Of a stretch of 64,000 bases of DNA, positions 16,224 through 20,271 are shown one piece after another. Every line of letters begins with the position of its first letter. The stretch's first letter is position 1. The translations under genes and the position numbers were made by a program. The notes under the pieces are model-generated. The model was not told the DNA's origin. It made no database searches and saw only the letters and a program-made list of their open reading frames with translations. Origin of the DNA: Rubritalea profundi (GTDB lineage Bacteria > Verrucomicrobiota > Verrucomicrobiia > Verrucomicrobiales > Akkermansiaceae); NCBI RefSeq assembly GCF_002954445.1, contig NZ_MQWA01000001.1, forward strand, positions 2,346,926 through 2,410,925. The letters are read 5' to 3'.

Positions 16224-17897
16224 ATGAGTGAATCCAGATACCGCATTGCTATCGGCGCCGACCACGGCGGAGTAGACCTTAAAGACGCTGTTGCGCGCCA
16301 CCTCATGTCCCTCGGTCATGAAGTCGCAGACTACGGCACCCATTCCAAAGATTCTGTTGATTATGCAGACTTTGCGAACGAAGTAGCCATCGAAGTGAGC
16401 CAGCAGCAATTTGATTGCGGCGTACTTTGTTGCACATCTGGTGTTGGTGTCAGCATGGCAGCCAACCGCTTCATCGGAGTGCGCGCAGTGAATGTGCAGA
16501 CTGTGGAAGACACAGTGGCTGCACGTGAACACAATGATGCCAACATCCTTTGCCTCGGCCAGAAGCACGTGGATGAAGCTACTGCTATCGCGATGGTTGA
16601 AGCATTTCTCGACACTAAGTTCGAAGGTGGCCGCCACGAAGCGCGTGTCACTAAAGCAAGCGGCAGCGCAATTGCAGTGTCTGACCCGGCCATTTTTGAA
16701 GCCATCCAAGAAGAAGGTCTTCGTCAGCGTAACAACATCGAGTTGATCGCGTCTGAGAACTTTACTTCACTTGCAGTGCAGGAAGCCCAAGGCGGCCTCC
16801 TCACTAACAAGTACGCAGAAGGTTACCCAGGTCGCCGTTGGTACGGTGGTTGTGAGAATGTCGACGTGGTGGAAAAAGTCGCGATCGATCGTCTCAAGGA
16901 ACTCTTCGGTGCAGACCACGCAAACGTGCAGCCACACTCTGGCTCACAGGCAAACACAGCAGTGTATTTCTCAGTGCTCAAGCCTGGCGACAAGATCCTG
17001 ACAATGGATCTAGCGCACGGTGGACACCTTACACACGGTCACAAAGCTAACTTTTCCGGTAAGTTCTACGAAGTGCAACACTACGGTGTGAGCGAAGTTG
17101 ACGAGCGTATCGACTACGACGCTCTCGAGGCTGCAGCAGTCGAATTCCAGCCAGCACTGATCACAACAGGCGCATCAGCTTACCCACGTGAAATCGATTT
17201 CGAGCGGATGGGGCAGATCGCAAAGAAGGTGGGAGCTTATCTGTTCGTAGACATGGCACACATCGCCGGTCTGGTTGCTGCAGGGGTTCACCCGAACCCA
17301 GTTCCACACGCAGATTTCGTGACATCTACAACGCATAAGTCGCTCCGCGGACCTCGTGGTGGTGTGATTCTCTGTAAGGCAGAGCACGCTAAGAAAATCG
17401 ACTCCACAGTATTCCCAGGCATCCAAGGTGGACCACTGATGCACGTGATCGCAGGCAAGGCAATTTGCTTTGGCGAGGCGCTCAAGCCAGAGTTTAAGGA
17501 TTACTCAGTGCAGGTAGTAAAGAATGCGCAAGCAATGGCTGGACGTCTTGCTGAGCACGGTTACCGCATCGTTTCTGGTGGTACAGACAACCATCTTTTC
17601 TTGATGGATTTCCGTCCAATTGGTCTCGATGGATCCATCGTTTCCACCGCGCTCGATGAAGCAGGTATCACAGTCAACAAAAACTCCATTCCGTTCGACA
17701 CTGCTGGGCCATTCAAGCCAAGCGGCATCCGTATTGGTACTCCAGCAGTCACGACACGTGGCATGAAGGAGGAAGACGTCATCAAGGTGGCTGACCTCAT
17801 CCACGCTGCAATCGAAGACCGCGAAGACGAAGCTAAGCTGGAAGAGATCCGTAATGAAGTTTACGACTTCAACCGCGCGTTCCCACTTCCTCGCTAA
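16224..17897 (+). CDS. glyA: Fused ribose-5-phosphate isomerase B / serine hydroxymethyltransferase
   Basis: 557 residues in one uninterrupted frame. Residues 1-145 are Rpi[15 protein letters not shown] near the start, then [27 protein letters not shown] and [13 protein letters not shown]. The usual active-site CGTGIG reads CTSGVG here. Residues about 150-557 are PLP-dependent GlyA, which interconverts serine and glycine and makes methylene-THF: [36 protein letters not shown] with the Schiff-base Lys, and [13 protein letters not shown]. The joined enzymes link pentose phosphates and one-carbon supply. A strong terminator follows, so the gene is probably monocistronic. The SHMT part should be active; the RpiB part has an altered loop. 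Confidence 0.93.
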
Positions 17898-17994: not shown

Positions 17995-19067
17995 TCAGTT
18001 TAGTGGGAGTTCGATGTAGCTGCCTTTATTTGTACTCGGCGAGGGGCTCGTAACCGTTGGTTTAAGTGTTGGGCTAGGGGATACTTGTGGCACGGGACCA
18101 GGCACGGGCGTGGGGCTATCTGCTAGGTATTCTTCTGCAGGAGGATCGATGAGCTCGGTAAGTTCTTTAGCCCAATCAGGGGCGCTGTTGTGGCTGATGT
18201 TGCGTGAGAGGTGAGTGAGCATTCTGGAGGCAGCACCGTATTCATCTCCAGCTGTGTAAACGTCCATTTCCATCTTCCAGATGAGTTTGGGTTTTTCGAT
18301 CTCGATAAACTTATTGTAAGCAGGCGGCTTGAGGTTCTTCTTCATACCAATAGTCTTGGACTTCGGCTTAGGTGCCCAGTGCTCAATACTTTGTTCTTGG
18401 TAGCTAATGCGTTCCTTCCAGGCAGAACGGAGAGTGGCGGCTTTTTGTGGGGTACGGAGGGGGGGAAGACTACTTGCTCGTAAACTTGTACAAGGTTCAG
18501 CGGGGAGGTTGGCCATTCGTTCACTTTGTAGCTGCCAAAGCCGTAGGCCTTGGCAAAGACTGAGCTGAGGACGTCTTTTCTGAGTATCGATTGGTAGCCT
18601 TCCAAGCTTTTAGTGTCGTCGAAGATATTGGAGATTGCGGTCCGAGCTTTGAGGGAGAGGGCAGCGTAGTCTTCTTCTTCGTTTCGCGATGCTTCGAGTG
18701 TGAGCACGAGCCAATTGAGTTGGTGGCGCAGAGCCAAACGGAATCCTGGGTCTGAAATTTTTTCTTTCTGAGCTTTTTTCCAAGCGCGGAAGTCGCTGGA
18801 TTTTTTTCCCGAATCGAGGAAATCGACTTTTTCTACACAATTGAGATAGAGGTCGTATGCTGCCGAGTTGGAGCTAAGTGCACTTTTATAGGCTCTGTAG
18901 GCGGTCGCCTGGCGTGAGATTAGGTGGATTTACTCTTATTGATAAGAGCATCGAGTGCTTTACTGAGCTGTTCGCGTTGAGCTGAGGTTATTGTCTCCGC
19001 TTGAGCCGGTATGGCTAAGGAGACAAATGCAAGGGCCGTATAGACACTGCGGAATTTATTGGTCATA
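17995..19067 (-). pseudogene. Secreted protein of unknown function, frameshifted twice
   Basis: Starts at ATG 19067 with a signal peptide (MTNKFRSVYTALAFVSLAIP, cleavage near AQA). Frame changes near 18915-18925 and at the G7 run 18459-18465 join three segments into one plausible protein of about 355 residues: ATAYRAYKSALSSNSAAYDL, then LRHQLNWLVLTLEASRNEEE, then KEFT-free helices and a Pro/Ser/Thr-rich tail (SPTPVPGPVPQVSPSP) ending SYIELPLN. Family not recognised, probably a helical lineage-specific periplasmic or surface protein. Because the second break lies in a homopolymer, sequence error is possible. Confidence 0.6.
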
Positions 19068-19186: not shown

Positions 19187-19759
19187 TCAGATGAGTTGCT
19201 TGAGGTTGGCGCGAATGCGATACCCTTGGCGTTGGGGCCGGGTGCCGACTTTGGCCAGCCAATCAACAATGTACGCTTCTAGTCGCTTGCAAGAGTCATC
19301 CCAGATTTTAGTCTGTTTGAGAATGTGGATGCATTCTTCTACATGGGAAAAGTAGACATCGTCGGCTCCCGTCTCTTTTAGTAAGTGGAGTTCATCTTGA
19401 AGCTCTTTAAAAAAGGCGAGTTCATAGCCGTCACCAGCATCACGTGCGGCGCGCTCTAATGAAATAGTGATGGGTGGAGCTATTGGGATGAGTGCGTTGG
19501 CAATGGAGCCGTAGCCAATCTTGCTGAGCATATGGGCTAGTCGCTTGTAGAGGTCTTCGATCTTTAGTAGACGAAGCGAGCACTTGTGCTCGAGGTAATG
19601 GATGACCCCTTCATAAACATCTTCGGTGAAGGCAAATTCTTCTTGCTGAGCACGCACTGCAGCTTGCTCGATGGCCTTGCGGATCCATTGAGTGCTGTAG
19701 CCTGTGACTTGGTAGCGGCCTACTTGGAGGACTGGGAGATTACCGACGATGCAGATCAT
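19187..19759 (-). CDS. Degenerate ATP-cone-like protein downstream of nrdR
   Basis: 190 residues, 20 bases downstream of nrdR on the same strand, so likely co-transcribed. Residues about 8-90 align by eye with the ATP-cone of NrdR: VLQVGRYQVTGYSTQWIRKA in place of VVKRDGTRQTLNREKLLRG, then a helical EDVYEGVIHYLEHK and IEDLYKRLAHMLSKIGYGSIA in place of the KVMDKLHDIDPVAYVRYV stretch. The nucleotide-binding KRDG residues are not conserved. The rest is helical with no metal site. It could be an accessory to NrdR or ribonucleotide reductase, or an unrelated conserved protein; this is inference from pattern and position. Confidence 0.6.
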   Translation of the reverse strand: MICIVGNLPVLQVGRYQVTGYSTQWIRKAIEQAAVRAQQEEFAFTEDVYEGVIHYLEHKCSLRLLKIEDLYKRLAHMLSKIGYGSIANALIPIAPPITISLERAARDAGDGYELAFFKELQDELHLLKETGADDVYFSHVEECIHILKQTKIWDDSCKRLEAYIVDWLAKVGTRPQRQGYRIRANLKQLI

Positions 19760-19779: not shown

Positions 19780-20271
19780 TTAGTCTTTAAAAAGGGGACG
19801 CTGGAGGGCGTTGCTGTGGGAGCGATTTTCGAGCTTCTGAATCTCACGGATGAACTCGCCAACGTCTTCGAATTGGCGGTATACCGAGACATAGCGCACG
19901 TAGGCTACGGGATCGATATCATGGAGTTTGTCCATGACCTTGACGCCAATGATTTTGGATGGGCATTCTGAGAGATGGTCTTTGTGGAGCTCGGCTAGAA
20001 TTTCTTCCACCGCACGGTCAAGACGAGCCATCGAGACTGGGCGTTTCTCACATGCTTTGACGAGACCTCGGAGGAGTTTCTCGCGGTTTAGAGTTTGGCG
20101 GGTGCCATCGCGCTTGACCACGCGGAGCTCAGTGCGCTCGATTTGCTCGTAGGTCGTATAGCGGTAATTGCACTTGAGGCATTCGCGACGGCGACGCGTG
20201 GTCGTCCCGTCTTTCGACATCCGAGAGTCGATGACTTTATCTTCGAGAGATCCACATTGAATACAGCGCAT
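19780..20271 (-). CDS. nrdR: Transcriptional repressor NrdR of ribonucleotide reductase genes
   Basis: 163 residues. The N-terminal zinc ribbon is CIQCG...CLKCNYRYTTYE (two CxxC pairs). The ATP-cone follows from about residue 49 (RVVKRDGTRQTLNREKLLRG), ending in YVRYVSVYRQFED. NrdR senses ATP/dATP and represses nrd genes by binding NrdR boxes. It heads a short operon with the ATP-cone-like gene 20 bases downstream. No ribonucleotide reductase gene lies in the window. Confidence 0.97.
   Translation of the reverse strand: MRCIQCGSLEDKVIDSRMSKDGTTTRRRRECLKCNYRYTTYEQIERTELRVVKRDGTRQTLNREKLLRGLVKACEKRPVSMARLDRAVEEILAELHKDHLSECPSKIIGVKVMDKLHDIDPVAYVRYVSVYRQFEDVGEFIREIQKLENRSHSNALQRPLFKD

Follow-up and report, generated by a model that had tools for sequence, protein, structure and literature searches.

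Directly downstream of nrdR in Rubritalea profundi lies a gene for a conserved, free-standing protein with a degenerate ATP-cone. The protein is fixed to nrdR and was found in none of the families or literature that we searched. NrdR represses ribonucleotide reductase in a wide range of bacteria. Starting from the predicted fold of the neighbouring protein, its homology, the loss of nucleotide-contact residues, the fixed gene pair and purifying selection, we give an even chance to the reading that it is a nucleotide-insensitive accessory subunit of the NrdR switch. The features discussed below are listed in Table 1; "the window" denotes the whole stretch of 64,000 nucleotides that was analysed.

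Table 1. Features of the nrdR locus, given in positions of the window
Feature	Position	Strand	Basis
Degenerate ATP-cone protein gene	19187..19759	minus	ORF with ATG start, 190 aa; match in 51 of 58 genomes
ATP-cone-like domain without nucleotide-contact residues (predicted), residues 1-93	19481..19759	minus	AlphaFold, VIA-align, profile comparisons
Second domain (predicted), beta-alpha-beta-alpha-beta, residues 94-190	19190..19480	minus	AlphaFold, VIA-align; weak IF3-C/Smr-like resemblance
Beta-hairpin in place of the K-R-D-G hairpin, residues 10-18, VLQVGRYQV	19706..19732	minus	AlphaFold strands and column counts
Trp25 codon, at the column of NrdR K65 (S. coelicolor K62, outer nucleotide contact)	19685..19687	minus	Alignment; residue role from passages of PMC9110341 and PMC12176259
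nrdR, intact, 163 aa	19780..20271	minus	Zinc ribbon and KRDG cone; TIGR00244 186 bits

A conserved gene fixed to nrdR

The gene is real, conserved and under purifying selection. The 58 genomes of the protein search comprise that of the window and its relatives up to the order. Seven are without the gene: six belong to one family (f4) and all have a match to the NrdR zinc ribbon, and the seventh, G025, has neither the gene nor a zinc-ribbon match and is the sole gene-less genome among the 36 searched in family f1. In three close pairs of the eight compared, dN/dS is about 0.15, 0.15 and 0.07; dS was saturated in the other five. When public genome contigs were scanned with this protein alone, one locus only was returned (L031), in an uncultured Verrucomicrobiales MAG; L032, which occupies the same place, was left out of the counts. 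Even at E<=10, neither Pfam PF03477 (ATP-cone) nor NCBIfam recognises the window protein, so its resemblance to a cone is not trivially visible. Nor does it match Zn_ribbon_NrdR or TIGR00244, that is, it is without the N-terminal zinc ribbon of NrdR with its two CxxC.

The first-pass annotation of the window had placed the gene 20 bases downstream of nrdR. The coordinates and the TIGR00244 match of the upstream gene agree with this, and the Zn_ribbon_NrdR and ATP-cone matches of the window NrdR are both above the Pfam cut-offs. Conservation of the pair in related genomes, which the annotation had proposed to check, is complete where both genes are present. In all 50 loci examined (the 51 matches minus G039, whose locus was left out), the cone-protein gene immediately follows nrdR on the same strand, with a gap of -4 to 105 bases. 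Of 141 genomes sampled from the class, 98 match the family profile, 132 the NrdR zinc ribbon and 94 both; in every one of the 94, the cone-protein gene stands just downstream of nrdR on the same strand. Four profile-positive genomes are without a zinc-ribbon match: the contig end cuts nrdR in G157, the match starts 95 bases into the contig in G104, and G092 and G085 have partial matches. NrdR can work without the cone protein, since 38 of the 132 class genomes with nrdR have no match to the short-form cone gene.

The third gene of the locus is presumably hinT (HIT family), and the order nrdR - cone gene - hinT occurs in 27 of the 50 loci. In the other 23, hinT was not found in the ~0.9-5 kb examined downstream and the nrdR/cone pair is still kept. 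We also read the neighbourhood of nrdR in 32 distinct genomes without the cone gene (8 of the 38 gene-less class genomes were outside this reading). Another protein, here called protein X, follows nrdR in 21 of them, with hinT beyond it in 20; in 8 of the remaining 11, hinT follows nrdR.

Protein X has ~155-240 aa and is found in families without the cone protein (loci L108-L110, L112-L116, L118-L120 and L126-L135; one ORF lies between in L115, and in L112 it is found ~1.1 kb on). In a profile comparison it aligns with the C-terminal part of the cone-protein family (P 2.1e-5). We rejected it as a member of the family: its model (pLDDT 78) gives no cone among the 50 structural rows listed and no chain with Z>=8.

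The surroundings provided several further observations. As regards autoregulation, no NrdR-box pair above shuffles was found before the window nrdR. The first nrdB-like gene is preceded by a weak candidate, which scores 19.8 against 18.9 for the highest of 100 shuffles; both results rest on an assumed consensus and assumed weights. The gene after the cone protein (17995-19066, minus) seems by eye to be broken up into several frames, a stop lying near 18925, and is possibly a pseudogene or a sequencing error. At 16224-17897 (plus) there is one ORF of 557 aa, which we take by eye to be ribose-5-phosphate isomerase B fused to serine hydroxymethyltransferase.

Predicted fold

The AlphaFold model, based on 46 aligned sequences, has a mean pLDDT of 92.2 and a pTM of 0.82. 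The first ~92 residues are predicted to adopt the ATP-cone fold, a beta-hairpin with a helical bundle: hairpin strands at residues 10-13 and 16-18, helices at 24-36, 45-58, 67-80 and 84-88, and a short strand at 64-66. When Foldseek candidates were re-scored by VIA-align, rows 1-15 were all ATP-cones, aligned over residues ~4-93. The first 14 chains have Z of 8.2-10.0, the 15th has 7.9, and the row after it drops to 6.8. The top chain is E. coli NrdR (9gex, Z 10.0, rmsd 2.7, 84 residues). Helical models can reach Z 13 in VIA-align without kinship; the weight lies on the unbroken series of 15 cones. Differences within 1 Z amount to ties, and the ranking therefore does not tell which cone is nearest. 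Foldseek alone returns nothing at E<=0.001; a class III reductase comes first in its top 50 rows, at a best E of 0.12, and other reductases and NrdR are among them.

The helix and strand order of the NrdR ATP-cone, which the first-pass annotation had recognised over about 80 residues, is thus recovered by the structure prediction that it had suggested. It had named a non-cone fold and an unconserved gene pair as grounds for giving up the idea; we obtained a predicted cone fold and a conserved pair. The annotation was right about the cone and missed three things, namely a conserved alpha/beta domain at the C-terminus (residues ~94-190), the long relative, and a cone profile that scores better against a reductase-type cone than against that of NrdR.

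In the model, the second domain consists of a strand (97-100), two helices (101-108 and 113-129), a strand (134-138), two more helices (140-148 and 155-170) and two final strands. Residues 94-188 resemble IF3-C (Z 6.8; 5lms chain X, 77 residues, rmsd 2.6) and Smr (Z 6.6; 2zqe). The background of the tool is 7-8, and this resemblance may be background.

Alternatively, the protein could have an unrelated job, such as binding of RNA by an IF3-C/Smr-like C-terminal domain, and could simply be a passenger kept in an old nrdR operon together with hinT. The recurrent order of the three genes and the identity of the top structural matches of the C-terminal domain are consistent with this. However, the pair persists in the loci where hinT was not found downstream, the Z values of the C-terminal domain are under 8 and hence within the stated background, and the homology between the first domain and the neighbour's sensor domain is unlikely to be a coincidence. 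We therefore consider a passenger improbable.

The nucleotide site

As judged from the alignment and the model, the fold of the cone is kept and the residues by which cones bind ATP/dATP are gone. The KRDG motif is absent from the window protein. At the K53 column (column 13), 43 of 46 family rows have V or I and none has Lys; at the K65 column (column 25) there is Trp in 45 rows and Cys in one. In NrdR, both lysines are invariant (79/79 rows). The columns of the family and of NrdR were matched through the long form, and the alignment is gap-free over that part. The first-pass annotation had claimed a loss of the KRDG nucleotide-binding residues for the single protein; the loss of the two contact lysines extends to the 46 aligned rows of the family.

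According to passages of PMC9110341 and PMC12176259, substitution of V48, K50, E56 or K62 in S. coelicolor NrdR (V51, K53, E59 and K65 in E. coli) impairs the protein in its oligomer state and in its binding of nucleotides and of DNA. Phosphates are bound by K50 and R51, and the dodecamer has a key contact on the opposite face of that hairpin (same passages).

The positions of the former site are fixed and not drifting: besides Trp25 (45/46), Gly14 is kept in 43 and Tyr21 in 41 of the 46 rows. Such constancy would also be expected if the protein were not nucleotide-blind and a nucleotide or another ligand occupied a remodelled pocket, stacking on Trp25, so that the protein would be a second sensor of the circuit. 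Since both lysines have disappeared, we regard this as very improbable.

Relationship to true cones and a long relative

Profile comparisons indicate that the cone protein shares ancestry with true ATP-cones, most strongly through a long relative and the cone of a class III reductase. In 194 genomes of the phylum, the family profile matches this class III cone, which has KRDG (L104, an enzyme that we identified by eye; E 2.7e-4 in that genome), and at most the first 96 residues of proteins of 324-361 aa in other classes. In hhalign, the family aligns with the class III cone at P 2.8e-8 over 76 columns, a value that is biased because the target was picked for having been found by the family profile. 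Among the cones of the NrdA encoded by the window's genome, the second gives P 0.023, and the first and third are not significant (P 0.12 and 0.57). The NrdR cones are not significant either (P 0.31, with a higher score for the reversed control). The alignment of the family with the long form reaches P 2.2e-11 over 98 columns (reversed control 0.2), with a score of 80.3 against 21.4 for the best of 40 column shuffles, and the long form in turn aligns with NrdR at P 2.6e-4. Sequence searches of the PDB gave no ATP-cone with the family profile and nothing at E<=0.1 with the long form. The profile-profile check proposed in the first pass thus came out positive for the class III cone and the long form and negative for the cones of NrdR. 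Because the profile is closer to a reductase-type cone than to that of NrdR, the protein does not look like a plain duplicate of nrdR; its cone looks more related to those of reductases.

The long form (L098-L103, L138-L166) has ~320 aa, with an extra helical middle part and a C-terminal part of its own. It begins with a cone: two of the five members given pass the Pfam ATP-cone cut-off of 25.8 (L100 with 34.2 bits, L103 with 29.9), and the other three fall below it with 22.9-24.7 bits. A search with the long form matched 188 of 387 phylum genomes, an uncounted part of these matches being ordinary cones over residues ~10-100 only. Duplicate long-form loci were left out of the comparisons. In 18 of the best 30 loci the long form directly adjoins nrdR, and in three more genomes (G250, G208, G476) the NrdR zinc ribbon lies ~2.2 kb upstream on the same strand. 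Among 12 genomes whose long form is not adjacent to nrdR, 6 gave no zinc-ribbon match (G226, G218, G456, G337, G490, G357; 82-96% complete), although NrdR was found in 359 of the 387 genomes of the sample. The long form can thus apparently exist without NrdR, which, like the 38 class genomes that have nrdR but no match to the short form, speaks against a role confined to NrdR.

Three known systems invite comparison. With NrdR (TIGR00244), the protein shares the predicted cone fold and the place in the genome, but it is without the zinc ribbon and K53/K65/KRDG, has an extra C-terminal alpha/beta domain, and its profile does not align significantly. Of the true cones that were compared by profile, the class III NrdD cone scores best, and its fold and that of other reductase cones is the same (9d3x, Z 9.5; 5im3, Z 9.4); unlike these, the cone protein is not attached to a reductase and appears to have lost the nucleotide residues. 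Finally, NrdA with several cones is described in PMC9669993, with two in P. aeruginosa and three in C. trachomatis. The extra cones there are domains of the enzyme, whereas here we see a free protein paired with the gene of the repressor. The window's genome offers a likeness to these enzymes, because its own NrdA (L125:2821-6102; contig 2331820-2335101) has by eye three cone-like N-terminal segments, of which the middle one, with RRNG, is near-canonical. This NrdA is preceded by two nrdB-like ORFs, the second apparently without its N-terminal part.

NrdR or reductase as the possible partner

The affinity to reductase-type cones raises the alternative that the protein acts on ribonucleotide reductase itself, as a cone in trans, its adjacency to nrdR reflecting shared control of dNTPs. 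This would agree with the better profile values for the class III cone and NrdA cone 2 than for NrdR, and with the long form in genomes where no NrdR was found. The content of cones in the genomes points in the other direction. Exactly one ATP-cone match is present in 41 of the 141 class genomes, and 37 of these have the cone-protein gene. In all 32 that were tested of the 37, the single match lies inside NrdR, with the cone-protein gene beside it, and a reductase match is present as well. Among 16 reductase loci shown, 14 start without a visible cone, one was begun at an internal Met and one is in a wrong frame. By eye, we take the 14 to be class II reductases. The only recognised cone in 32 of 32 genomes is thus that of NrdR, and retention of the gene does not depend on a reductase that carries a cone. 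The limit here is that degenerate cones escape the Pfam model, as do the window protein and two of the three NrdA segments that resemble cones. Moreover, the gene is fixed beside nrdR and not beside the reductase, and nrdA of the window's genome is ~31 kb away. These comparisons of gene content favour NrdR as the partner, and we consider action on the reductase unlikely.

One candidate for a docking site on NrdR was rejected. Its C-terminus (19783-19803, minus, in the window) often carries Q..LF in the order, e.g. QRPLFKD. The tail occurs in 37 of 51 rows with the cone gene, in 8 of 12 with neither the gene nor protein X (one genome counted twice), in none of 21 with protein X and in none of 18 with the long form. 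Because it is present without the gene and absent with the long form, it is not a co-varying docking site. Q..LF resembles the beta-clamp-binding motif, and it might link NrdR to replication.

Possible role of the cone protein

In titles and abstracts we found no such partner of NrdR; the search for NrdR partners was swamped by papers on eukaryotic corepressors and was uninformative. A candidate contact of NrdR elsewhere is a cross-linking model of Soj with NrdR, according to the title of PDB 9a6n. The switching of NrdR is explained by nucleotides on its own cone in passages of PMC9110341 and PMC12176259. NrdR forms different oligomers, and the back of the nucleotide-binding hairpin is one of the contacts (a passage of PMC9110341).

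We suggest that an accessory subunit could work as follows. The nucleotide-insensitive cone would dock on the cones of NrdR and, through an effect on the oligomer, would shift the repressor between DNA-binding and non-binding assemblies. The C-terminal domain might carry a second input or contact. Speculatively, we lean slightly towards a capping (anti-repressor) role.

A more ambitious version of this model, which we put forward only tentatively, assumes an undescribed regulatory subunit of NrdR in much of the class, with a long relative in other classes of the phylum. The near-invariant Trp would plug the site, the cone, held in a fixed state, would join NrdR oligomers, and the C-terminal domain would add a second input. 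The result would be a two-protein dNTP switch, in which the long form represents a stage or a branch partly uncoupled from NrdR.

Taken together, a conserved neighbour of NrdR that has lost its nucleotide-binding residues suggests an unrecognised partner of the switch of dNTP synthesis. If this is true, then many bacteria would set their NrdR switch via a protein partner that is built on the same domain as the repressor and is devoid of its sensing residues.
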